Part shown: in pieces, positions 6,177-19,734 of the stretch
Layout of the letters: every line of letters starts with the position of its first letter
Position numbering within the stretch: the first letter of the stretch is position 1
Source: Clostridia bacterium
GTDB taxonomy: Bacteria; Bacillota; Clostridia; Christensenellales; Aristaeellaceae
Direction: 5' to 3'
Assembly (NCBI GenBank): GCA_017541205.1
Contig: JAFXZO010000113.1
Location: 1-42,240, forward strand
Length of the DNA: 42,240 nt
Position numbers and translations under genes: made by a program
Notes under the pieces: model-generated
Database searches by the model: none
What the model was told of the DNA's origin: nothing
The model's input: the letters and a program-made list of their open reading frames with translations, nothing else

Positions 6177-6428
6177 ATATCACAACTGAAAGAGCATCGT
6201 CCAGGGCTGTACAGCCGTCTGATCCTGTCCGGGAAACTTTACGAGCACCTGACAGAAGTTGAACGCACATGCCAGGAACGGCTGGAAACCATGATCCCGC
6301 AGATGGCAAAACAGCAAGGTGTCACGGAGGAACTGAAAGCCAGAGATCAGCTTGGCTGGGTAGGCCGGATGAATGAAATCCAGCACAGCGCAGAAGAGAT
6401 CATCCTTGCAGAAATCGTATATGAGTAA
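6177..6428 (+). pseudogene. TnpV-like transposon protein, C-terminal remnant without start
   Basis: An open stretch that begins right after an in-frame TGA (6174-6176) and ends at TAA (6426-6428). It reads QLKEHRPGLYSRLILSGKLY, then a segment with VERTCQERLETMIPQMAKQQ and GVTEELKARDQLGWVGRMNE, and ends EEIILAEIVYE. This matches the C-terminal two thirds of TnpV, a small protein carried by Clostridia transposons. There is no start codon or ribosome site, and the N-terminal third is missing. The upstream border lies only about 40 nt after the DUF362 terminator. It marks a past mobile-element insertion. Confidence 0.7.
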
Positions 6429-6477
6429 CAGCCCACGGGCTGCCCGTTCATCACAGCGGGCTGCCCTTTATTATACG

Positions 6478-7370
6478 TCAAAGGGTATCATCCTTTTTGC
6501 GAGCATCATACTGTTTCCTGCACGCTGCTCCGCAGAAATCCTGATCCCTGCCTTTGGCAACATACACCTTGGCGCAGTTCCGGCAAATGCAAAGCGGGTT
6601 TTCGTCGTCCGCCAGCATGAAGCTGAACATGAGCTGGATGCCCAGCAGCAGGGAATGGAAATCCCACACGATGGTGGGCGTGTCGTACAGGGCGATATGA
6701 TAGGTGGGCGTGTTGCCGTCCAGGGTCGCCATGGCCTGCTGATAGATGTTCCGCTGATCCGAGCTGAGCTTATCATAATCCATATAGTACAGGATCGCAG
6801 TGGTCAGGATGAAAGCCCAATCTTTGAACTGGTTTTTCAGCCAGTCGTACCGCTAGGCGTAGCTGCGCTGGAAGCTCATGTTGACGGCCATGGGCTGATC
6901 CCGCATGGTCATGGCCAGAGCCATCATGTCCTTGTCGCCGGAGAGATTCCACAGGGATTCGATGCCGCGCTTGGCGACCTCCGGCTTTTCAAAGGGGAAA
7001 AACAGGGCCAGGTAATTCAGGGTATTCATGGTTTCGTCCTTGAAAAAGCGGTTTTTCAGCAGATACACCGCTTCGTAATGCATGAATTTCGCCGTGGTGG
7101 GCAGGGCGGTCATCAGACCGAACAAGCCGTACTTGACGGCAAAACCGTGAATGGCTTTCTGGATTTCCACGTCGGGCTTGCGGCTCATGCCCATCCTGCC
7201 GATGTTCAGGGCGTCCAGCACCAGCGATTCGGCGTCCGCCAGGAGATCGAAAATAATGGGCTTGGCATCAGCGGCAGGGGTGAGATACAGAATCCCCTTG
7301 CCGTCCTTTTCCATTCATAATCGCTGTACCGCACCCATTGGGCGCTGGCCTGCTCAAAGTAGCGTTTCAT
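6478..7370 (-). pseudogene. Zinc-finger-tailed protein gene broken by frameshift and amber codon
   Basis: A start at 7370 (GGAG upstream) gives MKRYFEQASAQWVRYSDYEW and then shifts frame near 7310-7318. The next frame continues KGILYLTPAADAKPIIFDLL ... LVLDALNIG ... GLFGLMTALPTTAKFMHYEA ... FQRSYA up to TAG at 6855-6853. The same frame resumes RYDWLKNQFKDWAFILTTA and ends with a Cys-rich tail, CRNCAKVYVAKGRDQDFC followed by a final CRKQYD. Without the lesions it would be one protein of about 297 residues with a CxxC-x15-CxxxC zinc motif. I recognise the family only as a conserved hypothetical (DUF6076-like tail) found in Clostridia accessory DNA. The two lesions make it a pseudogene. Confidence 0.75.
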
Positions 7371-7423
7371 CATCTTTCTCCATAAATATAGAAGCTTTAC
7401 CTATGTGGTTATATATCGCTTGG

Positions 7424-8344
7424 CTAATTACTATGCTTCCTAATGATGTCCGAAACGTCCTGAAGCGAAATGAATGCCTTTTCGTCAAACTCATGGACGA
7501 TCGTTTTCAGCTTATTGATCTGGAACCGGTTGACAATGAAATAGATGATGCTCTTGTCTTCTTTGGAAAAACCTCCGATGGCGTTGACGATCGTACCGCT
7601 TGTGCCGAACTGTTTGGAGATTGCCTCGGAAATATCATTTGCTTTTGTTGTCACGATCATCGCGCATTTTGATCTGTCAAAGCCCTCGACGATGAAATCC
7701 ACGGTCTTTGAACCAACAAAGTACGTTACGATCGAATACAGCGGCAGAATCCAGCTTTGTATGGCGATACCACAGACGATATACAGAAGCGTGTTGAAGA
7801 TCATCACGAGCGTCCCGATAGAAATGCCGATCTTCTTTGCAAACACCACGGACAAAACATCCACCCCGTCGATCGCTCCGCCGAAGCGGATCGTCAGCCC
7901 GCTGCCTACACCTGAAATCACCCCGCCAAAAATGGCGCAAAGCAGGAGATCAGACCCTGCGAGCGGAGAAATGATCGAAACGTCGATGGGCAACACATCC
8001 ATGATCAGGAACGATGTCAGCGAGTAAATAACAACCGTAAATATCGAATAGACGGTAAACGGCAGTCCCTGTCTCTTATATCCGAACATGAAAATCGGAA
8101 TGTTCAGAAGGATAAGAAACATCGGGAGCGTCAAATACGCAGGCGTGACTTGATCCAGCAGCATCGACGTTCCCGAAATGCCGCTGTCATATAGCTTCAC
8201 AGGAAAAAGGAACAGCGTCACCCCAAAGGCGTTGATGATCCCGGCAACGGTTAGGGAAAAGAAGTTCAGCGGCTTGATGTCGCGGAGTTTCTGAATAAGC
8301 GCTGTTGTTTTACGGTGTGATACCTTTTTGTTCTTGGCTTTCAT
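7424..8344 (-). CDS. YitT family membrane protein (DUF161 + DUF2179)
   Basis: 306-residue integral membrane protein. A basic N-terminus (MKAKNKKVSHRKTTALIQKL) leads into five or six membrane helices. The YitT signature lies around residues 130-185: FGGVISGVGSGLTIRFGGAI, DGVDVLSVVFAKK, then IGTLVMIFNTLLYI. A soluble C-terminal DUF2179 domain (about 220-300) has KCAMIVTTKANDISEAISKQ, GTSGTIVNAIGGFSKEDKSI and a final SLQDVSDII. Function is unproven. The ATG at 8344 has GAGG about 9 nt upstream; an in-frame GTG 15 nt earlier lacks a site. It is noticeably AT-richer than the flanking housekeeping genes and sits between pseudogenes, so it may have been acquired with the accessory patch. Confidence 0.88.
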   Translation of the reverse strand: MKAKNKKVSHRKTTALIQKLRDIKPLNFFSLTVAGIINAFGVTLFLFPVKLYDSGISGTSMLLDQVTPAYLTLPMFLILLNIPIFMFGYKRQGLPFTVYSIFTVVIYSLTSFLIMDVLPIDVSIISPLAGSDLLLCAIFGGVISGVGSGLTIRFGGAIDGVDVLSVVFAKKIGISIGTLVMIFNTLLYIVCGIAIQSWILPLYSIVTYFVGSKTVDFIVEGFDRSKCAMIVTTKANDISEAISKQFGTSGTIVNAIGGFSKEDKSIIYFIVNRFQINKLKTIVHEFDEKAFISLQDVSDIIRKHSN

Positions 8345-8373
8345 ATATGGTTTCCTCACATATTTCGATTTGA

Positions 8374-9006
8374 CTATGGTGCTTTTTTTGAAGCAGTGTG
8401 CCTCGATAAAACCCCTTCAAGTATATCATATTTCCCTCGTTTTTGCTTATTTTTTTCTCTGAAAGCCTCTTTTTCTTTTTCCAGGAAGCTCCTCTCCCGG
8501 CTTGTCAGCGGCTCTCCCGCCGCGTCCATCCGCATCAGCACGGGCAGGATCTTTTTCCGAATCCGATTCAGGGAGGTATTGCGGATCTTGCGGATGTTTC
8601 GATCCGTATTTTTTCGCCATTTGGCGATTTTGAGCGTGCTCCAATGCTCGATGGCGTACAGGAACAGCAATTCCTTCCGATCATCCGGCAATTCAGCCAA
8701 TGGTGTACTCAGGTATTCCTGGGGCACCAGTTCATGCAGGTCATAGACGCAGTAATAGATCGTGTCCAGGAAATCGCCCTTCCGATTCTGCCGGGCCAGC
8801 ACGCCGTTCAGGGAGGCGGGGAAGGCATAGCCGTCCGGGATCATGTTGTGCTCCAGGGGCGGCGTTTTGTTGCCCCGCAGGATCTCGTGGTATCGCTCCC
8901 GCCGCTCCCGATTGGCGGCCAGACAATCCCAGTTCTTCACCACTTCCCGAAAATCCGCTTCTGTGCGGGCCGCTTCCTCCAGGCGGGTCAACGCTTCCCG
9001 CTCCAT
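8374..9006 (-). CDS. Sigma-70 region 4-like HTH protein of accessory DNA
   Basis: 210-residue, highly charged soluble protein. A segment near residues 110-155 (ELLFLYAIEHWSTLKIAKWR, then RNIRKIRNTSLNRIRKKILP) resembles a sigma-70 region 4 helix-turn-helix. The C-terminus is a lysine/glutamate-rich helix (FLEKEKEAFREKNKQKRGKY). No regions 2 or 3 are visible, so it is not a complete sigma factor. Proteins of this shape occur in Clostridia mobile elements (recollection, not checked). It precedes yitT by 29 nt on the same strand. The ribosome site before the ATG at 9006 is weak, so the start is uncertain. Confidence 0.6.
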   Translation of the reverse strand: MEREALTRLEEAARTEADFREVVKNWDCLAANRERRERYHEILRGNKTPPLEHNMIPDGYAFPASLNGVLARQNRKGDFLDTIYYCVYDLHELVPQEYLSTPLAELPDDRKELLFLYAIEHWSTLKIAKWRKNTDRNIRKIRNTSLNRIRKKILPVLMRMDAAGEPLTSRERSFLEKEKEAFREKNKQKRGKYDILEGVLSRHTASKKAP

Positions 9007-9096
9007 GTCCCGTTTCAGCTTATTAAAAGGGAAAAAACTATTGTCATGCCCTGGAAAAATCTATTTTTGATTGATAAGCTCTCAATTTTCAAGAGG

Positions 9097-9124
9097 TGGA
9101 CATTCTATATATGTCGATTATAAT
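9097..9124 (+). promoter_or_regulatory. Promoter of the broken XRE regulator gene
   Basis: TGGACA (9097-9102), 16-nt spacer, TATAAT (9119-9124), 48 nt before the ATG. Confidence 0.65.
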
Positions 9125-9128
9125 AATA

Positions 9129-9142
9129 TTTGACCGGTCAAA
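9129..9142. promoter_or_regulatory. 14-bp perfect palindrome over the start site of that promoter
   Basis: TTTGACCGGTCAAA is a perfect palindrome starting 5 bp after the -10 box. That is where a repressor would block transcription. The sequence type resembles operators of TetR-family repressors, but no such gene is in the window. Confidence 0.55.
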
Positions 9143-9172
9143 ATAATTCACAAGCATTGAGAGGTGTGGCTT

Positions 9173-9676
9173 ATGTCATTTGGTGAAACGGTAAAAACAC
9201 TTCGCCGAGCTTCAAATCTGACGCAGGAAAAGCTTGCGGAGCTGCTTGCCATTTCGCCGCAGGCTGTGAGCTGATGGGAAACCGATGCGGCAATGCCGGA
9301 TATTTCACTCCTGCCGCCGCTGGCTAATTTGTTCGGGGTCTCAACGGATCACTTGCTGGGTATGGACACTTACCAGAATGATTTGCGCAAAGCGGAATTT
9401 GACAAGGCATTCTTTGAGTATTGGAAACACGATGATAAAGAGCGCAACTATCAAATCGCCCAGCAAGCCGCATCAGCGTATCCGGGCAATATGGAATATA
9501 TGGAATGGCTCGCATCCGCCGAATACTATGCAGCCGTCCTGAAACAGGACGATGCCGAACGAAAAAAGCTGCTTGAAAGCTCTGTTGCGCACTACAACAT
9601 CGTATTAGATCATACTAAAGAATCATGTCGCCGGAGAGAAACCACAGACAGACTCAAAAACAAACGATCTGGATGA
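9173..9676 (+). pseudogene. XRE-family transcriptional regulator gene with an in-frame TGA
   Basis: The ATG at 9173 (GAGGTG upstream) opens a normal XRE helix-turn-helix: MSFGETVKTLRRASNLTQEK, then LAELLAISPQAVS. The next codon is TGA at 9272-9274, where the family has Arg of the S-R-W-E motif (a single CGA to TGA change would do it). The frame continues WETDAAMPDISLLPPLANLF, GVSTDHLLGMD and a TPR-like helical part (AYPGNMEYMEWLASAEYYAA ... HYNIVLDHTKES). Similarity to what I know of this family stops near 9620 and the frame ends RLKNKRSG. So both a nonsense codon and a lost C-terminus make it non-functional. Re-initiation at 9293 would give a protein without the DNA-binding helix. Confidence 0.75.
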
Positions 9677-9746
9677 TTTTTATGTCAAACATGATGAACG
9701 TAAGAAACAGCAGACCAGGAAAAAGAATCAGCCCACGCTTGAATGA
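9609..9746 (+). pseudogene. Orphan C-terminal tail of an unidentified protein
   Basis: In a different frame from the XRE remnant, an open stretch ending at TGA 9744-9746 reads HVAGEKPQTDSKTNDLDDFY followed by VKHDERKKQQTRKKNQPTLE. It has no start codon or ribosome site. The charged, low-complexity ending looks like the tail of a mobilisation or transposon protein, but I cannot name it. It begins where the XRE similarity stops, which suggests a deletion junction. Confidence 0.35.
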
Positions 9747-9793
9747 TCGTCAAAAACGCGCCCCAAAGCTGCTTCTGATCGTAAAAATCATGT

Positions 9794-9848
9794 TCGAGAC
9801 TTACAATTTTGTAAGTTTCGCCGTTTTCCTCAAATTCGGGTGTATAAT
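9794..9848 (+). promoter_or_regulatory. Kinase-operon promoter with palindromic element (copy 1)
   Basis: The element at 9794-9821 contains arms ACTTACAA and TTGTAAGT around TT (9799-9816), widened by CGA/TCG flanks. It is followed after 21 nt by TATAAT (9843-9848). The same 28 bases recur at 13371-13398. No good -35 hexamer is present, so an activator acting at the element would make sense. Confidence 0.7.
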
Positions 9849-9888
9849 AGTTTAGCAATGAGACGAGAGGAAAAGTGAGGCGAGCGGC

Positions 9889-11820
9889 TTGAAATGGGAG
9901 AGAACGCTGAAAGCGGCGCGTCAGTTTCTTGTGCCGGCGCTGGTGCTGGCGTTGATCATCGCATTCTATTCATTCTGCGTAGGTCGTGCGCAGACGGAGT
10001 TCCCGGTGCTGCGTCCGCAGGACGGAGTGCTGGACGTAAGGGAGACAGACTTTTCTTCGGACGTCTATCACTTGGTGAACAAATGGGATTATTATCCGGG
10101 CCAGCTTCTGTCCCCGGATGCTTTTGCTGATCCCACTGCTGCCCCGGAGAAGGACAACGACAGCCCGATTGACGTAGAGAAAGGCACCTATCGGCTGCGC
10201 ATCCTGGCAAAACCGAATGCCTACCTTACCGTTTGCTCCTTCTCCATTGATTACAGCACCCGCATTTTTGTGAACGGAAAGGAGGTGCGCAGCATCGGCT
10301 TTGTGTCGGACGATCCAGCCCGGGCGGTGCCAAGGGTGCGTTATGTGACGCTGCCCCTGTATTCCGGGGACAGCGGCGAAATCGAAATCATCTATCAATG
10401 CGCCAACTATGTGCACAATGAAGGCGGGTTCATCCAGAACACCCTGATCTCCACGCCGGAGAACATTGACGAATACCAGCGTGGACTGACGCTGAACGCC
10501 ATGATTGTCAGCGGCGGGCTGCTGATGCTTTGCTTCTATTTCCTGCTGTGCGCCGCATTCCAGAAAAACCGGGAATACGCCGCGCTGGCGGCCTGCTGCC
10601 TGGTGATTGCGATGCGCAACCAGTTTTTCTCCGTCCAGCATTTGATGCCGCCGACGCTCAGCTTCTATATCGAATACCGCCTGGTGATCCTGGACGTCAG
10701 CTGGATTCCCATGGTGACGGTGTTTCTGTTTTTCGCCTTTTTCCGGGAATCCGCTGGAAAGAAGACGCTGCTTTGTTTCGCGTGCCTCTGCCTGCTCCTG
10801 TCCGCGCTGCACTTCATCGTGGATACCCATGATCTGGTGCTGCTGTGCCACGTCTGCTATTATGCCTGCGCTCCCTTTGCCCTGTGGTTCCTGCTCCGGC
10901 ATCTCTGGTCTTTCCGCAGGCAAAAGCCCGGTGTGCTGGATATCGTCACGCTCCTGGCCATCCTCTTCTTCACCTTCATGCTCATCCGGGAGGGCACGGC
11001 CTCCGGCAGCAATTCTTCCATCAATCATTTCGGCGTCACGCCGTTAGCGATGGTCGTGTGCATCCTGCTGCTGGCCATCGTGAACAATGAAAAGATCAAC
11101 CGGCAGACGGCCCAGCTGCGGAAGGAAATGCAGCGCAACGAGCTGCTTTTGCAGATGAACGCCACCAACAACGATTTCCTGCGCACCGTGGCCCATGAAC
11201 TGAAAACCCCCCTGACCGTGATCTCCGGCTATGCCCAGCTGATGGAGCGCCAGATGGAGCGCGGCCCGCTTTCCGAAAAAGCGCCGGAGCGATTGAAAAC
11301 CATCCAAAGCGAGGCGGACCGTCTGGCGGAAATGGTTTCGCAGCTCATGGATTACACCTATGGCCACGAGAAAGACGCGGAAATGACAGCCGTGGATATC
11401 GACGAACTGTTCCGCAGCGCCTCCGCCATCATGACGCCGGTATGCGCAAAAAAGAACAATACGCTGACCGTCCATAATGGCAGCGCGTCCAATATCCACG
11501 GCAATGCCGAGCTGCTTTTGCAGGTGCTCATCAACCTGATCGTGAACGCCACCCGCCACACGGAATCCGGCCAGATCACCGTAAGCGCACAGGACAATGT
11601 GGGCTTTGTGGAGATCACCGTATCGGACACCGGCGACGGTATATCCCCGGAGGCCGTACCGCACATCTTTGAAAAGGGCTATTCCACCGATGACAGCCGG
11701 GGCCTTGGCCTGGCCATCTGCATGGATACCGTGCGCCTGCACGGCGGCACGCTGGAATTGGTATCTAACAGCCCGGATGGCGCTTCTTTCCGCTTCACGG
11801 TGCCGAAAGAAGCAATATAG
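9889..11820 (+). CDS. 7TM (7TMR-DISM-like) sensor histidine kinase
   Basis: 643-residue membrane sensor. There is one N-terminal helix (about 13-30), then an extracellular beta-rich domain (31-205) with segments such as TYRLRILAKPNAYLTVCSFS and STRIFVNGKEVRSIGF typical of 7TMR-DISM jelly-roll sensors, then seven helices (about 205-400). The cytoplasmic kinase has the H box NDFLRTVAHELKTPLTVISG (phospho-His about 436), the N box LLLQVLINLIVNATRHTESG, the G1 box VSDTGDGI and the G2 box SRGLGLAI. Ligand unknown. The start is TTG at 9889 with GAGG 9 nt upstream; no in-frame ATG is near. It forms an operon with the regulator gene 38 nt downstream. Confidence 0.92.
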   Translation: MKWERTLKAARQFLVPALVLALIIAFYSFCVGRAQTEFPVLRPQDGVLDVRETDFSSDVYHLVNKWDYYPGQLLSPDAFADPTAAPEKDNDSPIDVEKGTYRLRILAKPNAYLTVCSFSIDYSTRIFVNGKEVRSIGFVSDDPARAVPRVRYVTLPLYSGDSGEIEIIYQCANYVHNEGGFIQNTLISTPENIDEYQRGLTLNAMIVSGGLLMLCFYFLLCAAFQKNREYAALAACCLVIAMRNQFFSVQHLMPPTLSFYIEYRLVILDVSWIPMVTVFLFFAFFRESAGKKTLLCFACLCLLLSALHFIVDTHDLVLLCHVCYYACAPFALWFLLRHLWSFRRQKPGVLDIVTLLAILFFTFMLIREGTASGSNSSINHFGVTPLAMVVCILLLAIVNNEKINRQTAQLRKEMQRNELLLQMNATNNDFLRTVAHELKTPLTVISGYAQLMERQMERGPLSEKAPERLKTIQSEADRLAEMVSQLMDYTYGHEKDAEMTAVDIDELFRSASAIMTPVCAKKNNTLTVHNGSASNIHGNAELLLQVLINLIVNATRHTESGQITVSAQDNVGFVEITVSDTGDGISPEAVPHIFEKGYSTDDSRGLGLAICMDTVRLHGGTLELVSNSPDGASFRFTVPKEAI

Positions 11821-11858
11821 AATGTAGAACGCAGAATTTAGAATGAAGAGGGTGCATC

Positions 11859-12524
11859 ATGAGCTATACGATCCTTTTAGTCGAAGATAATCCCCACATC
11901 ATGGAAATCAACCGAGAAGCGCTGATAATGGAGGATTTCGGTGTGGTGGAAGCCACGAACGGCAAAGCGTGCATGGAAGTCCTGCGCACTCACGATGTGG
12001 ACATGATCGTGCTGGACATCATGCTGCCGGACAGCGACGGATTGACATTGTGCAGGCAGATCAAGGCCCAGTACGACATTCCCATCCTGTTCCTTTCCGC
12101 CCTGGGGGAAAACGAGCAGATCATCCAGGGCCTGCGCTCCGGCGGGGACGACTATTTGCCCAAGCCCTATGATATCCGGGTGCTGGTGGCCCGCATCGAA
12201 GCGCGATTGCGGGCATCCCAGCGCAGAAAGCGGTTCATGACCTTCAGCGGCCTAAAGCTGGACACGGCCCTGCTGACGGCGTATTCCGGCGAAACGGATC
12301 TGCTGCTGAGCCAGAAGGAGTACCTCCTGCTGCTGACGCTGCTCGGCAACCCCAACCGGCCCATAGAGAAGGAGGAATTGTACAGCGCCGTTTGGGGCAT
12401 GGCAGCGGGCGGCGACATGAGCGCCTTGCATACGACCATCTCCCGACTGAATAAGAAATTGGAAAGCGCGGGGAAACGGGTATCCCATCGCCGGGGCGAA
12501 GGATACGCACTGGAGGAGATATAA
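11859..12524 (+). CDS. OmpR/PhoB-type response regulator
   Basis: 221-residue cytoplasmic transcription factor, partner of the kinase encoded 38 nt upstream. The receiver domain (1-120) has the acidic pair ED at 9-10, phospho-acceptor Asp53 in MIVLDIMLPDSDGL, and the switch residues S80 and Lys102 (DDYLPKP). The C-terminal winged helix (about 125-221) shows LDTALLTAYSGETDLLLSQK, EYLLLLTLLGNPNRPIEKEE and an ending RRGEGYALEEI typical of the OmpR class. The palindromic element upstream of its own operon and of the secreted repeat-protein gene is its most likely target (inference). Confidence 0.95.
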   Translation: MSYTILLVEDNPHIMEINREALIMEDFGVVEATNGKACMEVLRTHDVDMIVLDIMLPDSDGLTLCRQIKAQYDIPILFLSALGENEQIIQGLRSGGDDYLPKPYDIRVLVARIEARLRASQRRKRFMTFSGLKLDTALLTAYSGETDLLLSQKEYLLLLTLLGNPNRPIEKEELYSAVWGMAAGGDMSALHTTISRLNKKLESAGKRVSHRRGEGYALEEI

Positions 12525-12545
12525 ACGAATCACATCCACACCCTC

Positions 12546-12593
12546 AAAAACGTACGATTTTCTTTTGACAAATCGTACGTTTTTGGATATGAT
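12546..12593 (+). promoter_or_regulatory. Toxin-antitoxin promoter inside a 15-bp inverted repeat
   Basis: The arms AAAAACGTACGATTT (12546-12560) and AAATCGTACGTTTTT (12570-12584) are perfectly complementary with a 9-nt loop. TTGACA (12565-12570) and TATGAT (12588-12593), spaced by 17 nt, form a promoter, so the right arm fills the spacer. The repeat may be the operator for the antitoxin. As RNA it is a hairpin ending in T5, so it can also terminate the kinase-regulator transcript. Confidence 0.75.
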
Positions 12594-12616
12594 AAAAAGG
12601 AAGGGAGGAATAAAAA

Positions 12617-12832
12617 ATGTCCATTACAGCGACGGAACTAAAGAAAAACCTGAGCAAGTACCTGCTGCTTTCCGCCACGGAGGACGTTTATATCACGAAA
12701 AACGGCAAAGTAGTCAGCAAGCTCTGCAATCCTTTCCAGGATCGGGTGGAGATCGCCAAATCGCTGTTTGGCAGCGTTCCCGCCGCCATGACCCTAGAGG
12801 AAGCGAGAGAGGAGCGGCTTGGGAAGATATGA
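12617..12832 (+). CDS. Phd/YefM-type antitoxin
   Basis: 71-residue protein starting MSITATELKKNLSKYLLLSA, the N-terminal DNA-binding fold of the Phd/YefM family. It continues TEDVYITKNGKVVSKLCNPF (the I-T-K-N-G-K-x-V signature) and ends in a charged toxin-binding tail (MTLEEAREERLGKI). It would neutralise the PIN toxin encoded next and repress the operon. A strong GGGAGGAA site precedes the ATG. Its stop codon overlaps the toxin start (ATGA at 12829-12832), the usual coupling of antitoxin and toxin. Confidence 0.88.
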   Translation: MSITATELKKNLSKYLLLSATEDVYITKNGKVVSKLCNPFQDRVEIAKSLFGSVPAAMTLEEAREERLGKI

Positions 12833-13269
12833 GGATGTTGATTGATACCTGCGTGATCATGGACGCCGTGCAAAGCAGGGAACCCTTTGCCCAGGACGCC
12901 CAGGCGATCCTTCTTGCAGCCGCGAATCAACAGATCATGGGCTATGCCACCGCCAAGGAAATGACGGATATTTACTATCTCGCCCATCGATGCACCCACG
13001 ATCAGGGGGCAGCCAGGACGATCATGGGCAGGCTTTGCACGCTGCTGGACATCCTGGATACCACGGAAAGCGATATTCGCCGGGCGCTTGCGTCAGGGCT
13101 GAACGACTATGAGGACGCGGTCATGGTGGAAACAGCCATCCGTGAGGAAATGGATTGCATTGTCACCCGGAATCTGTCCGATTACGGCGCTTCCCCCGTA
13201 CCTGTTTATTCTCCCCACGATTTTTTGATGAAGCTGGAAAGCGAATGGTCGCAAAGCGACGAAAAATGA
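12829..13269 (+). CDS. VapC-like PIN-domain ribonuclease toxin
   Basis: 146-residue protein with a complete PIN fold: MLIDTCVIMDAV (first catalytic Asp), YATAKEMTDIYYLAHR (Glu), SGLNDYEDAVMVETA (Asp pair), and MDCIVTRNLSDY (final acidic site). VapC-type toxins cleave RNA in the cytoplasm, often tRNA or rRNA; the target here is unknown. The ATG at 12829 overlaps the antitoxin stop; a second ATG six bases on is also possible. The pair lies between the kinase operon and the secreted repeat protein but has its own promoter. Confidence 0.88.
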   Translation: MRMLIDTCVIMDAVQSREPFAQDAQAILLAAANQQIMGYATAKEMTDIYYLAHRCTHDQGAARTIMGRLCTLLDILDTTESDIRRALASGLNDYEDAVMVETAIREEMDCIVTRNLSDYGASPVPVYSPHDFLMKLESEWSQSDEK

Positions 13270-13370
13270 AGCCAGGCTGGCCCGTGCGGTCAGTCTTTTT
13301 GATTGCGGCAGATGATTTCTTATCCCTTCACATCCGTTTTCCATTCTACATTTTAATAAGTAGAAAAAAA

Positions 13371-13425
13371 TCGAGACTTACAATTTTGTAAGTTTCGCGA
13401 TTTGGGCGTTTTTTTATGCTATGCT
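13371..13425 (+). promoter_or_regulatory. Promoter of the repeat-protein gene with palindromic element (copy 2)
   Basis: All 28 bases of copy 1 recur here (13371-13398). A 21-nt spacer follows, then TATGCT (13420-13425) as the -10 box. Element identity and spacing match the kinase promoter, while the flanks differ. Confidence 0.7.
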
Positions 13426-13519
13426 GTATGCGATGAATTCCGTCCATGTGGGACGCGGGCGGCGAAGGACGAAAACGAACGGATTTTTATAGCGACGCCC
13501 GAAAAAGGAGGATGGGAAA

Positions 13520-16500
13520 ATGAAAAAACTGTTGTGCGCGCTGGCGGTGCTGGCGCTGGCGATCGTGCTGCTGCCCATGCAGGAGGCGAAAGCGAATTAC
13601 CATAGGGGCGACACATGCCCGAAATGCGGACAAAACAATATCAGTACTTTTTGGGGCACAACCAAACTTCACAACGTTTGGTGCAGTAATTGCCATTGGG
13701 GCCAGGAGTTAAATGGCGACGGTAGATGGATCACGCTGGAAAGCAACCGCGAACCGCATTTCGGCGGCACGGCCACCTGCGTAAAAGAAGCAAAATGCGA
13801 GGGCTGCAACACGACATACGGCGAAATAGACCCCAAAAACCATACAAACCTGGAAACCTTCGCCGCCAAAGAGCCCACCTGCACCGAAAGCGGCAATAAC
13901 CTGTATTACTATTGCAAGGACTGCAAAAAGTACCTGAAAGCGGATAAGAAAACCGAAACCACCGTGGAAAAAGAAACCATCAAGGCCTTCCACGACTGGG
14001 CCACCACCCTGACGGACGGCGGCGACACCCATTATTACGCCTGCTCCCGCTGTGACGCGAAAAAGGACGAAGCGGCGCACATCTACGAAAACTGGACGAA
14101 AGTGGACGACAGCAACCACAAGGGCAAATGCGCCTGCGGGAAGGAGAAAACCGAACCCCATTCCGGCGGCACGGCTACCTGCCAGGCAAAAGCCAAGTGC
14201 GCAGACTGCGAAGCGGAATATGGCGATAAAGCCGATCACAATTGGGATACGGCTTGGACCACGGGCGAGGGCAAGCACTGGCACAAGTGCAAAACGCCGG
14301 GCTGCACCGCCAAGAAGGACGAAGCGGAGCACAGCGGCGGCACGGCCACCTGCGTAAGCCAGGCCACCTGCGGCGTATGCAATCAGAAATACGGTCAAAA
14401 AGACCCCAACAACCACAGCTGGCAGCAGAGCAAGATTCTGTGGCTTTATGTCAATGGCACATATACCGAAGCAGACGTTTACTACTCCTGCGAACGGAAG
14501 GTGAATGGCTGCACTGCGAGCAAAACGCAGAAAATGCACCTTGAAAAGTCCTGCACGGCCACATGCGAAGCAGCCGGCAAATACATTTTCAAGGCTACGA
14601 TTTCTGCGGATGAAACGCTGGATGGCGGCGCGTATTCCGAAGAAAGAAGCCTGGATGCGTCCGCCCTGGGCCACGAATGGGAAACCAAGTGGACCATTGA
14701 CGGGGATGTGCATTACCACGCCTGCTCCCGGTGTGATGCAAAAAAGGACGAGGCGGCGCACAGCTACGGCAGCTGGACAAAAGTGGACGACGAAACCCAC
14801 GAGGGCACCTGCGTCTGCGGCGCGAAAACCACGGGGGAACATGTATGGAACGGCAGCCATTGGTGCGGATATCCCCGCAAGTGTTCCGTGTGCCAGGAAT
14901 ATTACGGCGAAACCTTGGGTCATGAATTTTGGTATGAATATAAAACCGAAGAACAGCACAAGATCAACTGCTATCACTGTGACGGGCTCTTCGGCAGAGA
15001 GGATCATTCTGGCGGCACCGCCACCTGCACGAAGAAGGCCGTCTGCGAAAAGTGCGGCGAGGAATACGGCGATTACGCCCACGACTGGGGCGAATGGCAC
15101 GTTGACCCGGACGACAGCACAAAGCACATCCGAACCTGTAACAACAACTGCGGCGCCAGCGAAAGCCACGCCATTTCCTGGGGCGCCTGGGAGAAGGTGG
15201 ACGAGGAAAACCACAAGCACTCCTGCCAGGGGGGCTGCGGCCTTTCGGAGACGGTGGCCCACGTGTGGAACGGCAGCCATTGGTGCGGCTATCCCCGTAA
15301 GTGCAGGGACTGCGGCGAGTTCTACGGCGACGTTTTAGATCATGAATTCTGGTACGAGTATAAAACGGAAGAGCAGCATAAGATCAACTGCTATCACTGC
15401 GACGGGCTCTTTGGCAGGGAGGACCATTCCGGCGGCACGGCTACCTGTACACAGAAGGCCGTATGCGAAAAGTGCGGTCATGAATACGGCGCGCTCGCCG
15501 AGCACACCGGCGGCACGGCTACCTGTACGGAGAAGGCGAAGTGTGAAGTCTGCGGACAGGAATACGGGGAACCGCTGGGCCACGACCTCATCCATCACGA
15601 CGCCCAGGCCCCCACCTGCACGGCTATCGGCTGGGACGCCTACAACACCTGCTCCCGGTGCGATTACACCACCTATGAGGAAAAAGCCGCGCTCGGCCAT
15701 GACCCGGTGCACCATGACGCACAAGCGCCCACCTGTACGGCCATCGGCTGGGATGCCTATGATACCTGCTCCCGGTGTGACTACACCACCTACGCGGAGA
15801 AGGCCGCTTTGGGCCATGACCTCGTGCACCATGACGCGCAAGCTCCAACCTGCACGGAAATCGGCTGGGATGCCTACGACACCTGCTCCCGGTGCGATTA
15901 TACAACCTATGTGGAAAAAGCCGCGCTGGGACACGACCTGATTCACCACGACGCGCAGGCCCCCACCTGCACGGCTATCGGCTGGGATGCCTACGACACC
16001 TGCTCCCGGTGCGATTATACGACCTATGTAGAAAAAGCCGCGCTGGGGCATGACCTGGTCCACCATGACGCACAAGCCCCCACCTGTACGGAAATCGGCT
16101 GGGACGCCTACGACACCTGCTCCCGGTGCGACTACACCACGTATGAGGAAAAGGCTTCGCTCGGCCATGACCTCGTGCACCATGACGCTCAGGCTCCGAC
16201 CTGCACAGCTATCGGCTGGGATGCCTACGATACCTGCTCCCGGTGCGACTACACCACGTATGCGGAAAAGAAAGCCCTGGGCCATGATCTCGTGCATCAC
16301 GACGCGCAAGCGCCCACCTGCACGGCCATCGGCTGGGACGCCTACGACGCCTGCTCCCGCTGCGATTACACCACCTATGCGGAAATCCCGGCGCTGGGTC
16401 ACGATTATCAAATCACCAGCCGCACGATCACCATCATCACATCCACATGCAGTCATTGCGGCGACAGCGCCTGGACATATAACCCCGGCAGCAGGAGCCT

Positions 16501-16933
16501 GCTGGACGGCCTGGTGCGGGATGTCGCGGGTGAACCCGTGGATTATTCCGCCGGCGTTTCCCTGGTGGATGGAAAGCGTGTGCTCGCCGTGACGCCTGAT
16601 CCCGTGGACGGCGAGGTTGGCTTGTATCTGACGCCGGAGGAAGCTGAGCTGTGGCTCAAGCAGGGCATTGACACGGTTTCGTTCAGCACGGATTTCGCGG
16701 CCCTGGAAATCGACCTTTCCGAGATCACCGCCGAATGGTTCCCCCTGGAAGACGGGGCTGAGATCGACTTCTTCGTATTCACCCTGGCCCCCGCCGAAGA
16801 CGGCGCGGAGGTGCGGGCGGAAGCCTTGATCGGCGAAGAAAAAACGCCGGCGGAAGCGTTTGCCGGCATCGCCCTGTTCCTGGAAGATCAGGGAATCGGT
16901 GTTACGGAGAATGGCGTATATCGAAAAGAATGA
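13520..16933 (+). CDS. Secreted cysteine-rich repeat protein
   Basis: 1137 residues. The signal peptide MKKLLCALAVLALAIVLLPM-QEAKA has a likely cut before NYHRG. The mature part is a chain of short CxxC modules. One class reads like HSGGTATCTKKAVCEKCGEE (about eight copies). Another has two long copies holding VWNGSHWCGYPRKC and HKINCYHCDGLFGRE. Residues 686-958 are seven tandem 39-residue units. The last 160 residues are an acidic, Cys-free domain (LLDGLVRDVAGEPVDY to VTENGVYRKE). The repeats resemble zinc-ribbon-like modules of gut Clostridia surface proteins. There is no LPXTG, S-layer or membrane anchor, so it is probably released or held by unknown contacts. AAAGGAGG precedes the ATG. 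Function unknown; regulation by the adjacent two-component system is inferred from the shared element. Confidence 0.85.
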   Translation: MKKLLCALAVLALAIVLLPMQEAKANYHRGDTCPKCGQNNISTFWGTTKLHNVWCSNCHWGQELNGDGRWITLESNREPHFGGTATCVKEAKCEGCNTTYGEIDPKNHTNLETFAAKEPTCTESGNNLYYYCKDCKKYLKADKKTETTVEKETIKAFHDWATTLTDGGDTHYYACSRCDAKKDEAAHIYENWTKVDDSNHKGKCACGKEKTEPHSGGTATCQAKAKCADCEAEYGDKADHNWDTAWTTGEGKHWHKCKTPGCTAKKDEAEHSGGTATCVSQATCGVCNQKYGQKDPNNHSWQQSKILWLYVNGTYTEADVYYSCERKVNGCTASKTQKMHLEKSCTATCEAAGKYIFKATISADETLDGGAYSEERSLDASALGHEWETKWTIDGDVHYHACSRCDAKKDEAAHSYGSWTKVDDETHEGTCVCGAKTTGEHVWNGSHWCGYPRKCSVCQEYYGETLGHEFWYEYKTEEQHKINCYHCDGLFGREDHSGGTATCTKKAVCEKCGEEYGDYAHDWGEWHVDPDDSTKHIRTCNNNCGASESHAISWGAWEKVDEENHKHSCQGGCGLSETVAHVWNGSHWCGYPRKCRDCGEFYGDVLDHEFWYEYKTEEQHKINCYHCDGLFGREDHSGGTATCTQKAVCEKCGHEYGALAEHTGGTATCTEKAKCEVCGQEYGEPLGHDLIHHDAQAPTCTAIGWDAYNTCSRCDYTTYEEKAALGHDPVHHDAQAPTCTAIGWDAYDTCSRCDYTTYAEKAALGHDLVHHDAQAPTCTEIGWDAYDTCSRCDYTTYVEKAALGHDLIHHDAQAPTCTAIGWDAYDTCSRCDYTTYVEKAALGHDLVHHDAQAPTCTEIGWDAYDTCSRCDYTTYEEKASLGHDLVHHDAQAPTCTAIGWDAYDTCSRCDYTTYAEKKALGHDLVHHDAQAPTCTAIGWDAYDACSRCDYTTYAEIPALGHDYQITSRTITIITSTCSHCGDSAWTYNPGSRSLLDGLVRDVAGEPVDYSAGVSLVDGKRVLAVTPDPVDGEVGLYLTPEEAELWLKQGIDTVSFSTDFAALEIDLSEITAEWFPLEDGAEIDFFVFTLAPAEDGAEVRAEALIGEEKTPAEAFAGIALFLEDQGIGVTENGVYRKE
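15575..16393 (+). repeat. Seven tandem 117-bp coding repeats (39 residues each)
   Basis: Each unit begins LGHD and contains HHDAQAPTCTAIGWDAYDTC followed by SRCDYTTY and a Lys/Ala tail. Units differ mainly at three protein positions (L/P-I/V after LGHD, A/E before IGW, and A/V/E before EK), while many third codon positions vary. The protein is therefore conserved more than the DNA. Confidence 0.95.
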
Positions 16934-16961
16934 TTGGACAAGCAGAAAAAGTTAAAGCTTG

Positions 16962-17008
16962 ACGAAAACCTGCAATTTTGACGAAAATCAGAATTGCAGG
17001 TTTTTCGT
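16962..17008. terminator. Terminator after the repeat-protein gene
   Basis: CGAAAACCTGCAATTTT and GAATTGCAGGTTTTTCG form a long stem around a short AT-rich loop, with a T-tract in the stem on both strands. It can also serve the leftward UMF1 gene. The remaining bases up to 17182 hold no gene that I can see. Confidence 0.75.
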
Positions 17009-17182
17009 GGTCTGCGTTCATCCTGCTCGAATAGAACGCTTTTGAGCATGGGTGAGCCGTAAAACTCGGATCATAGAATGGCTCAAGGCTTTACGGAAGC
17101 TTTCTTTCAAAACACCTTGCCAAAATGTCAAAAATAATCTAAAAATACCCTTGACAATATCCGTCTTAGATGGGATTAAGTA

Positions 17183-18727
17183 TCAGTTTTCGTGATTCAG
17201 CGCTTCAAAATGCTTTTTCCCCGTTACCAAGATGATGAGGCCGATCAGGAACAGGCAGATCAGCGCAAGCACGCCGTAGGAGGAGCGGCCCGTCCACGTG
17301 CCGATCATGGCATAGAGCACCGGGCCCAGCACGGAAGCGAATTTTCCGAAGATATCAAAGAAGCCGAAGAATTCGTTGCTGCGTTCCTTGGGGATCAGCT
17401 TGCCGAAATAGCTGCGGCTGACGGCCTGGATGCCGCCCTGCACCGTGCCCACCATAAAGGCCATCGCCCAGAAGAGGATGGTGGAGCGGCTGACGGCGCT
17501 TTGGAATTTCTGGATGACGGAGATATTGTTCCCCAGGAATTGCGCGTAGGTCCCCAGCACCTTGTCCACTTCTGCGTTCGCGCGCTGCTCCTGCGTATAT
17601 TTTACGATTTCCGCCTCCCACTTGGCCGCGGCGTCCTTGCTGGAAAGCAGGCCCGCGCCTGCGTCGCGCAGGGCGATGGCGGTTTCGTCGGTCAGATCGG
17701 CCAATTGATCCGTGTATTCCGCTTTCAGCACTTCGTTATACGCTTCCTGGTGCGGCTCCAGGGAGAAGCCCATATAGAACCCCAAGCAGCAGATCAGGGT
17801 ATATACGGCAATGGCCCCGATCAGCGCCTTGCGGGCGGAGAACTTTTCCGCGAGCTTCGCAAACCAGATCGAGCACGGCATTGCGACGAGCTGGGTCACC
17901 AGCAGGGCCAGGATCATGCCCACGCTGCCAAGGCCCAGCACCGTTCCGTAAGCCGTGGAAATATTGATGATCGTTCCGACGCCGTCGATATAGAAGAAAT
18001 AGGCCAGCACGTAGAGGAACAGGCCGCGGCGCTGGAAGATGTCCTTCGCCGTATGCAGGATGTTGCGGAAGGTATGGCCGATGGTGTGGTCTTTCGTGCG
18101 CTCGATGTAGTGGGTCTGCTCCACGTTCCTGAAGAAGGGGATCGAGAAGACCAGCCACCAGACGCTGGTGATGATGATCGAGAACTTTTGCGCGATGGGA
18201 TTGCTGTAGCCCAGGACCAGCAGCATCGCAATGGAAATCACAAACGGGATCGTGCTGCCGCCGATGTAGCCCATGGCATAGCCCCAGGAGGAGACCTTGT
18301 CCATCTTATCATCGGTGGTCACGTCGGTCAGGAACGAATCATAGAACAGGCAGCTGCCCGAAAAGCCGATGCGGCTGATGATGTAGCCGATCAGCATGAG
18401 CTTCCAGTTGTTCATCACCAGGGCGATCAGGAACGTGAACACCACGCCCATCAGCACGAAGACGGTGAACAGCTTTTTCTTCATTCCCTTGTAGTCCGCC
18501 ACAGCGCCTAAAATCGGCGCGAGAACGGCGACGATGAACGTGGCGATGGAAATGCCGTAGCCCCACCAGATATCGCCCGTGCTGCCCGTGCCGCCGGCGA
18601 TGGAGACGAAAATGATGGGGAAGATGGCGGCCATGATGTTGGTGGCGTAAACGGAGTTGGCCCAATCGTACATGATCCAGCTCCATTCTTTTTTTGTAAA
18701 TCTTTTTTCCGCTTTGGCCTTGGGCAT
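17183..18727 (-). CDS. UMF1/Atg22-like MFS transporter
   Basis: 514-residue membrane transporter of the UMF1 branch of the major facilitator superfamily. It has the family opening KKEWSWIMYDWANSVYATNI, the loop ADYKGMKKKLFTVFVLMG, SCLFYDSFLTDVTTDDKMDK and VSSWGYAMGYIGGS, and near the end VQGGIQAVSRSYFGKLIPKE plus FFGFFDIFGKFASVLGP. The substrate is unknown. It is longer than the usual UMF1 of about 430 residues. An extra hydrophilic stretch of about 80 residues (from about 335, EPHQEAYNEVLKAEYTDQLA and on) sits between membrane segments. The start at 18727 has AAAGGAGG. Single gene with its own promoter. Confidence 0.9.
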   Translation of the reverse strand: MPKAKAEKRFTKKEWSWIMYDWANSVYATNIMAAIFPIIFVSIAGGTGSTGDIWWGYGISIATFIVAVLAPILGAVADYKGMKKKLFTVFVLMGVVFTFLIALVMNNWKLMLIGYIISRIGFSGSCLFYDSFLTDVTTDDKMDKVSSWGYAMGYIGGSTIPFVISIAMLLVLGYSNPIAQKFSIIITSVWWLVFSIPFFRNVEQTHYIERTKDHTIGHTFRNILHTAKDIFQRRGLFLYVLAYFFYIDGVGTIINISTAYGTVLGLGSVGMILALLVTQLVAMPCSIWFAKLAEKFSARKALIGAIAVYTLICCLGFYMGFSLEPHQEAYNEVLKAEYTDQLADLTDETAIALRDAGAGLLSSKDAAAKWEAEIVKYTQEQRANAEVDKVLGTYAQFLGNNISVIQKFQSAVSRSTILFWAMAFMVGTVQGGIQAVSRSYFGKLIPKERSNEFFGFFDIFGKFASVLGPVLYAMIGTWTGRSSYGVLALICLFLIGLIILVTGKKHFEALNHEN

Positions 18728-18767
18728 GGCGGCTGCCTCCTTTGCGTTGCTGATTGATCCCGCCTCT

Positions 18768-18795
18768 ATTATACAGAATTCAGCATTTTTTTCAA
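18768..18795 (-). promoter_or_regulatory. Promoter of the UMF1 transporter gene
   Basis: Minus strand TTGAAA (18795-18790), 16-nt spacer, TATAAT (18773-18768). Confidence 0.65.
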
Positions 18796-19038
18796 GGCGA
18801 AAAATTTTTTCGGCCTGATCCTGGAAATGTATGGAAGGAACAAGAGCACCCAACTTCTGCAGCCCTTTCCAGCGTGCGGTAAAAATGCAGTGCAGGAAAT
18901 CCAGCGCTGGGAAATGCTGGAATACCGGATTGGATCTGCCATATATTGGCAGAAAAATGGGGATAAACAAACGCGGGCGCTTCGTCATTGTGGTGTACGG
19001 CCAAGGCCGGAACACAGAATACAAAAGGAGGAATCCCC
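18796..19038. other. Intergenic stretch between UMF1 and SH3 genes
   Basis: Between the divergent UMF1 and SH3-protein genes. AAAGGAGG just before 19039 is the SH3 gene's ribosome site. I see no convincing promoter hexamers, conserved RNA or small gene here. Confidence 0.4.
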
Positions 19039-19734
19039 ATGAACGATCGCAAAACCCCAAGAATCCTGAGCGCCATCCTGGCGGGCATCCTGTGCCTTTC
19101 CATTCCCGCCGCTTCGCTTGCCGCCGAGTACGCTACCGTGCAGGGCGGCGGGCTGAACCTGCGTCAGTGCGCAGGGCTGGATGCGAAGGTCCTGGGCCAG
19201 TATGGCACCGGCACCTGGATCGAGGTGCTGGAAAAGGGCGAAACCTGGAGCAAGGTGAAGGTGGACGGAAAAACCGGCTACATGATGACCAAGTACCTGA
19301 ATTTTGGCCTGACCGGAAAGACCATGTATGTGCGAACCAACACCGGCATCGGCCTGAACCTGCGCGAAGCCCCCAGCACGTCCGCCCGGATCATTACGTC
19401 CTTCCCCGTCGGCACCGCCGTGTGCGTCATCCAGGGCGGCGATTCCTGGCATAAGGTCTGCGTGGGCAAGCTGAGCGGCTACATGGCCAGCGCGTACCTG
19501 AAAACGGAAAAAACGTCCTCCGCCGCGGCGCCCGCCACTTTCAAGGCCACCGTGCGCAACATCAACGGCGGATGCGTGGTCAATTTCCGCCTGAAGCCCG
19601 GCATGAAAACCACCATCCTCAAAAAGATCCCCGTCGGCACCCAGGTGACCGTACTCGAAAAGGGCGAAAACTGGTGCAGGGTGGAGATCGACGGCCAGCA
19701 GGGCTACATGAGCACCTATATGCTGAAATTCTGA
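19039..19734 (+). CDS. Exported protein with three SH3b domains
   Basis: 231 residues. The signal peptide (MNDRKTPRILSAILAGILCL SIPAASLA) ends at an ALA-type site before AEYATVQ. Three bacterial SH3 (SH3_3) repeats follow, at about residues 30-87, 94-160 and 170-231. Each carries the pattern LNLRxxxxxxAxV/I ... G-T-x-V-x-V-L-x-K-G-x-x-W-x-K/R-V-x-V/I-x-G-x-x-G-Y-M. Such modules bind cell wall peptide or glycan. With no catalytic domain, this is a wall-binding or scaffold protein of unknown partner. GGAGG precedes the ATG. Confidence 0.9.
   Translation: MNDRKTPRILSAILAGILCLSIPAASLAAEYATVQGGGLNLRQCAGLDAKVLGQYGTGTWIEVLEKGETWSKVKVDGKTGYMMTKYLNFGLTGKTMYVRTNTGIGLNLREAPSTSARIITSFPVGTAVCVIQGGDSWHKVCVGKLSGYMASAYLKTEKTSSAAAPATFKATVRNINGGCVVNFRLKPGMKTTILKKIPVGTQVTVLEKGENWCRVEIDGQQGYMSTYMLKF

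Follow-up and report, generated by a model that had tools for sequence, protein, structure and literature searches.

Why do two promoters of a single bacterial locus, one before a sensor kinase-regulator operon and the other before a large secreted repeat protein, carry the same palindromic element? The question is raised by a stretch of 42,240 nt (hereafter the window; contig JAFXZO010000113.1) from a Clostridia bacterium of the family Aristaeellaceae, whose whole assembly comprises 3,003,240 bases in 121 contigs and is 84.86% complete. Sequence comparisons point, with high probability, to the palindrome as the operator of the response regulator (OmpR type) whose gene lies between the two copies; this protein would bind it as a dimer and activate both its own operon and the gene of the neighboring exported protein. 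Most likely, the locus comprises a two-component operon that regulates itself and, next to it, the gene of an exported output.

The pairwise comparison of the two copies (boxes A and B, table 1) gave a maximal identical run of 28 nt, exactly as a first-pass annotation of this DNA had claimed. Each copy is an inverted repeat with 12-nt arms, which are 92% complementary and separated by 2 nt, so that the palindrome of that annotation stands and its arm length of 8 bp does not. The box core, CTTACA-ATTT-TGTAAG, is located at 9800-9815, and TTACA-ATTT-TGTAA is present in both copies. With up to three mismatches, the core ACTTACAATTTTGTAAGT has only two sites in the window and none expected in 100 shuffles. 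The scan of the whole assembly, proposed by the annotation as a check, returned two genomic copies: no third site of the 18-nt core was found at up to two mismatches, and two extra sites appeared at exactly three. The 60-nt flanks of the copies are 35% identical upstream and 25% downstream, in agreement with the claim that the flanks differ and that the promoter region was not recently duplicated.

Relatives were collected by a regulator search of genome contigs (best 80 of 91 loci). The main set consists of 42 loci, that is, the window and 41 relatives (L045-L085) with regulators that share 54-77% identity along the whole or almost the whole protein. Their records belong to Clostridiales, Clostridia, Lachnospiraceae, Ruminococcaceae, Oscillospiraceae or related metagenome-assembled genomes, many from rumen, omasum or reticulum (RUG names are taken here to denote rumen genomes). 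CTTACA-N4-TGTAAG, at up to two mismatches, is placed before the sensor kinase gene in 38 of the 41 testable loci, the contig of L051 being too short upstream. In the loci with the gene order regulator-kinase (L055-L058, L060, and L063), the box is still before the kinase. Boxes are also found within 1000 nt after the regulator in 35 cases, 29 of which start 6-86 nt past the regulator end; in the window, the output box starts 853 nt past it.

The distance between box and promoter is also conserved. Both -10 hexamers of the window start 21 nt past the element, as claimed for TATAAT and TATGCT, the latter being weak. A second TATGCT at 13415-13420 overlaps the output candidate, and the hexamer at 13420 was favored because its distance of 42 nt from TTACA is the usual spacing in the relatives. 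When the best -10 hexamer was allowed to lie at any distance from 30 to 55 nt downstream of the box, 55 of the 67 boxes near the operon had it at 41-42 nt from TTACA. Promoters with a hexamer at 41-42 nt numbered 71, and 67 after the removal of near-identical ones; these loci are not independent. Given the hexamer at -12 to -7, the box is centered at about -47. In an alignment of 54 promoters, the arms hardly vary, except for A/G and T/C changes at one position per arm, and most 4-nt spacers resemble ATTT in one orientation (exactly ATTT in 20/56). The -35 region shows no enrichment: TTGACA is matched at three or more positions in 17/54 promoters (about 25 in shuffles) and at four or more in 9/54 (about 6.5 in shuffles). 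The conservation of the -10 is partly circular, because this hexamer served to select the aligned promoters; the free-choice offset and the -35 result are not. The absence of a good -35, another point of the annotation, is borne out by this lack of conservation and by a simple sigma-70 scan, which listed four sites in 9600-13600 and neither of the two promoters among them.

The box follows this particular regulator. At up to one mismatch, 63 boxes were found in the 673 kb of the 42 loci versus one in the 660 kb that surround 38 weaker matches (L087-L124). This sole box is in L113, itself a 75%-identical regulator match cut at 60 residues; L086, also a cut match, was placed in neither set. In a survey of 308 genomes of the window's family, where the regulator was scored as present at E<=1e-50 and the box with its -10 at up to two mismatches, the regulator was found in 6 genomes and the box in 18. 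All six genomes with the regulator have the box, versus 12 of the 302 without it (Fisher 1.6e-8, which is only indicative as the genomes are related). The reversed pattern occurred in 16/308 genomes and in none of the six, and therefore most of the 12 regulator-less matches look like chance. OmpR-type regulators as such are present in all 29 genus genomes searched. The conservation of position, sequence and geometry with the orthologues of the regulator, together with this co-occurrence, supports the earlier proposal of the OmpR-type protein as the predicted binder.

A second survey covered 42 genomes, all but G024 chosen for carrying the regulator and 39 of them distinct (G064/G318, G185/G309, and G186/G310 have identical coordinates). 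The pattern was present in 37 of them, at 71 places versus 3 for its reversed form. From the five genomes without it, G320, G329, and G331 match at one base less between box and hexamer, and in G322 and G327 the box or the hexamer is weaker. G064, G185, and G186, in which the boxes are slightly different, escaped a strict 19-mer, which matched 10 regulator-less genomes besides G024. In six of these 10 (L128, L130-L134) a third half-site and then an ATPase gene follow; in L135 the half-site is present and the longest frame is a different one, and L129, L140, and L141 either lacked this layout or were not followed.

The genes behind the boxes are mainly of the exported type. Genes were called, and labeled as exported, with our own scripts (start by ribosome site; hydrophobic N-terminus) and not with a trained predictor. 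Among the 75 boxes of the 42 loci with a hexamer matching at least 4/6 at 40-42 nt, 38 precede kinases, 27 exported-type genes, two RiPP-type genes (ribosomally synthesized and post-translationally modified peptides), and one an EAL-domain gene, and seven have no called target. These counts include hand corrections, by which one box each of L049, L050, L059, L060, and L061 was moved to the kinases and one of L081 to the exported class. The 27 exported-type boxes correspond to 26 genes, the window output included, as L068 has two boxes before one gene. An exported-type N-terminus is thus found behind 27 of the 37 non-kinase boxes; the background for the 42 loci, with slightly different gene calling and box targets included, is 103 of 483 called genes with a length of 90 aa or more. 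Among the domains of the targets are repeats of the InlB and BspA types, collagen repeats, Big_2, dockerin, and a GDSL lipase. The RiPP-type targets are a Nif11 leader in L050 (33.2 bits, cut-off 32.3) and a radical SAM/SPASM protein in L052.

Outside the known loci there are 20 places with the pattern, 19 of which were taken up (G338:C136 was left out, and places at the one-base-shorter spacing were not followed up). Twelve of the 19 precede proteins of the exported type by rule (L198-L208, L211), in some cases only if a later start codon is used, and the target of L209 is exported by eye and not by rule. The box of L197 stands before a kinase gene truncated by the contig (56% identity over 159 aa). 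The target of L195 is an RDD-family protein, those of L210 and L212 read as a receiver-domain protein and a phosphotransferase, and L196 and L213 have no clear gene behind the box. The single dedicated secreted output proposed in the first-pass annotation holds for this genome as assembled and does not extend to the group, since several relatives carry further boxes, mostly before exported-type proteins.

Some of the targets are of separate interest. In G014, two paralogous copies of the system (L050, 7293-7893; L052, 10688-13289) have the Nif11-type precursor and the radical SAM/SPASM gene, respectively, behind the output box, and another frame of L052 is just under the Nif11 cut-off (23.1 vs 23.8). 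In L055 (13343-15332) the box precedes an EAL-domain gene (4.5e-60) whose product is hydrophobic in its N-terminal half, which may point to a connection with cyclic-di-GMP in this one relative. A similar box with a -10 is also found at G020:C73:14376 (L195) and at G027:C68:1088, the latter genome being without an orthologue of the regulator (E<=1e-50).

Several observations do not fit an operator dedicated to this regulator and must be weighed against it. OmpR-family regulators often bind direct repeats and, in the available part of one report (PMC6222199), an inverted repeat weakened or abolished binding. The box type is common to other regulators, and similar boxes are located before ABC-transporter genes of the same family. 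L074, L081, and L082 have no box before the kinase, 9/42 loci have none within 1000 nt after the regulator, and in four of those nine (L054, L059, L071, L073) an exported-type gene follows the regulator without it. Seven of the 37 boxes not placed before a kinase lack a called target, and the perfect box of L069 has its best hexamer at 55 nt. Finally, G024 keeps box and output with no orthologue of the regulator in its genome search and no kinase on the 5.3-kb contig. Its box (L012, G024:C80) is not one of the chance matches, because it comes with a related output (54% identity in the best segment, 425 aa). This contig (3018-3503 and 3672) carries a PIN gene similar by reading, the box and the output, and two tandem HD_5-domain genes lie upstream.

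Part of these points would be accommodated if box and targets were the same, with the regulator acting as a repressor or in a dual manner, or with another OmpR-type regulator as the main binder. A BceR-like protein would be an example, BceR being a member of the OmpR family. The window genome has five further OmpR-type matches (E<=1e-20), CTTACA-N4-TGTAAG precedes ABC-transporter ATPase genes in relatives (L128, L130-L134), G024 has box and output where the regulator was not found, and box position alone does not prove activation. However, the box with its -10 tracks the presence of this regulator and not that of OmpR-type regulators generally. The transporter promoters have the extra half-site and, in the one measured, an offset of 67 nt from box to hexamer instead of 42. 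Activation is also in accordance with the absent -35 and with a box that ends near -40. We therefore consider such a reassignment of binder or sign improbable.

It is still less probable, and indeed very unlikely, that the palindrome acts as an RNA hairpin, that is, a transcription terminator or attenuator. Both copies do fold as hairpins (-15.4 and -14.8 kcal/mol; z -3.65 and -2.78), 9795-9820 was listed as terminator-like in a scan, and the boxes of relatives often start close behind the regulator gene. On the contrary, the operon has a box in front as well and the spacing to the -10 is near-fixed. The stems fold, yet their core is rich in A+T, and the T-stretch begins about 9 nt past it. 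In this stretch (-31 to -28), the boxes before the operon are richer in T (0.60-0.88 T, n=25) than the other boxes (0.42-0.68 T, n=31), those after the regulator included, which speaks against a terminator because one serving the regulator gene would need the opposite. An Rfam scan of the window gave 0 matches at gathering score and thus no described RNA element. Lastly, a 28-nt identity that is perfect within one locus might be left by a mobile or recently duplicated repeat, found at two promoters by chance. This explanation was rejected as hardly credible, given no expected site in shuffles, only two genomic copies, unrelated flanks and a position conserved in relatives.

The operator of the OmpR-type regulator is thus the preferred reading, from which we infer the following course of events. 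The membrane kinase would sense a signal and phosphorylate the regulator, a dimer of which would bind CTTACA-N4-TGTAAG centered near -47, beside the place of the missing -35. The bound dimer may then recruit vegetative RNA polymerase to a promoter composed of a -10 only. The outcome would be positive autoregulation of the kinase-regulator operon through box A and activation of the neighboring exported protein through box B.

Table 1. Predicted operator boxes, promoter hexamers and genes of the locus (positions in the window)
Feature	Position	Strand	Remarks
Operator box A (predicted)	9794..9821	+	Before kinase-regulator operon; 28-nt identity to box B
-10 hexamer TATAAT, operon promoter	9843..9848	+	Offset 42 from TTACA, commonest in relatives; no conserved -35
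Membrane sensor histidine kinase, 643 aa	9889..11820	+	Pfam HisKA 7.6e-18, HATPase_c 2.2e-23
OmpR/PhoB-type response regulator	11859..12524	+	Response_reg (PF00072) 6e-28, Trans_reg_C (PF00486) 2.2e-15; proposed binder of both boxes
Phd-type antitoxin and PIN toxin	12617-12832, 12829-13269	+	Pfam PIN_3 9.1e-24; PhdYeFM_antitox 25.6 bits, cut-off 29.8
Operator box B (predicted)	13371..13398	+	Before secreted repeat protein; identical to box A
-10 hexamer TATGCT (weak), output promoter	13420..13425	+	Offset 42 from TTACA as in relatives
Output protein, 1137 aa	13520..16933	+	N-terminal signal-like sequence (script), 77 Cys, 23 CxxC motifs, repeats

The kinase consists of an N-terminal hydrophobic segment, a presumed extracytoplasmic domain of ~160 aa, a region of several transmembrane segments, HisKA and HATPase_c. 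A crude script counts seven hydrophobic segments. The 7TM sensor of the first-pass annotation is a membrane histidine kinase with a 7TM Pfam match below the curated cut-off: 7TMR-DISM_7TM (PF07695) scores 18 bits versus a gathering score of 29. Of the 29 kinases that were aligned, 12 match the same family at E<=0.01, the best of them at 2.1e-6. Scanning 11 of the presumed extracytoplasmic domains against Pfam, DISMED included, gave nothing credible (two of the 11 to PSF3_N, best E 0.046), and the PDB gave one weak match (E 0.031). In the regulator, D10, D53, and K102 are invariant in 32 aligned sequences (from 32 of the 42 loci); D53 is presumably the phospho-acceptor Asp, and a functional role of K102 is likewise assumed.

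The suggestion of a compact signaling unit holds for sensor, regulator and boxed output, with the reservation that a Phd/PIN toxin-antitoxin pair intervenes between regulator and output. This pair is not part of the signaling unit. Its antitoxin scores 22.7 bits with NCBIfam phd_fam (cut-off 20.8). Ahead of the pair, a palindrome at 12551-12579 (CGTACGATTT...AAATCGTACG) overlaps the TTGACA of a near-consensus promoter (12565-12593) and is, as expected, a candidate for the toxin-antitoxin operator. The C-terminal repeats of the output protein are near-identical, and no NCBIfam family matches the protein at E<=0.01. Its Pfam matches to BCNT (24.9, cut-off 22.2; best stretch 22 residues) and PIRC1_2 (below cut-off) were judged spurious.

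The system is most likely one of a known kind, and its arrangement recurs in related bacteria. In the available portion of PMC9020739, TNACA-N4-TGTAA is the box of BceAB-associated regulators; inverted-repeat consensus and AT-rich 4-nt spacer are the same here. BceRS-like kinases are described in the part seen of PMC7864038 as being without an extracellular sensory domain, whereas the kinase of the window has the presumed ~160-aa domain and many hydrophobic segments. No BceAB-type transporter was found among 10 proteins scanned at 6373-19060, and the rest of the genome was not searched for one. The single box near -47 also differs from the transporter promoters of the same family, which carry the extra half-site. 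The system is therefore not a Bce module and uses the same kind of operator, as the box fits TNACA-N4-TGTAA and the transporter promoters differ in half-site and offset. The ATPase genes behind those promoters (L128, L130-L134), with CTTACA-N4-TGTAAG followed by a third TGTAAG, form a distinct layout. We read their products as BceA-like; ABC_tran was confirmed for L132, which scored above cut-off for none of the 25 NCBIfam families listed.

Other likenesses are functional or partial. GraSR of Staphylococcus aureus, according to the accessible text of PMC3128592, has a palindromic operator (ACAAA/TTTGT) upstream of promoters with weak -35 boxes, which is required for activation. In that source, autoregulation by GraXSR is absent and the predicted potential targets number 29 genes, whereas here the box stands before the kinase operon itself and the assembly has two sites. 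The nearest functional parallel found is BgrRS (Sak188/Sak189) of Streptococcus agalactiae, which adjoins the gene of a surface antigen, bac, activated by its regulator; the kinase is dispensable for bac expression (PMC2856668, abstract). That abstract mentions no operator, and the likeness drawn here is one of function. Copper regulators of the CusR type resemble the system in a palindromic site, a very restrictive regulon and control of their own operon, as far as the available part of PMC11195947 goes. The heavy-metal regulator subfamily TIGR01387 was rejected for the window regulator (P0002), with 122.8 bits versus a cut-off of 279.2.

A broader reading, which we put forward tentatively and hold to be somewhat doubtful, is that of a portable sensory cassette. 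Its fixed part would consist of the regulator, a rigid box-to--10 module and the conserved membrane kinase, whose extracytoplasmic domain is undescribed. Lineages of gut and rumen Clostridia might have plugged unrelated extracellular products into it, possibly while sensing the same surface or neighbor cue. The products in question are giant proteins with BspA/InlB repeats, proteins with CxxC repeats or a GDSL domain, short anchored ones and, in a single genome, a radical-SAM enzyme and a Nif11-type peptide. Among the titles and abstract openings listed for rumen or Lachnospiraceae bacteria, 7TMR-DISM kinases and the letters of the box, none described such a system, which is weak evidence of novelty.

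Through the palindrome, an uncharacterized family of sensors gains a defined and testable candidate operator, and therefore its candidate targets may be read from genomes alone. As mainly exported-type genes lie behind the box, and the outputs vary by lineage while sensor and box remain constant, the element would also offer a handle on how uncultured bacteria of gut and rumen switch on large surface or secreted proteins.

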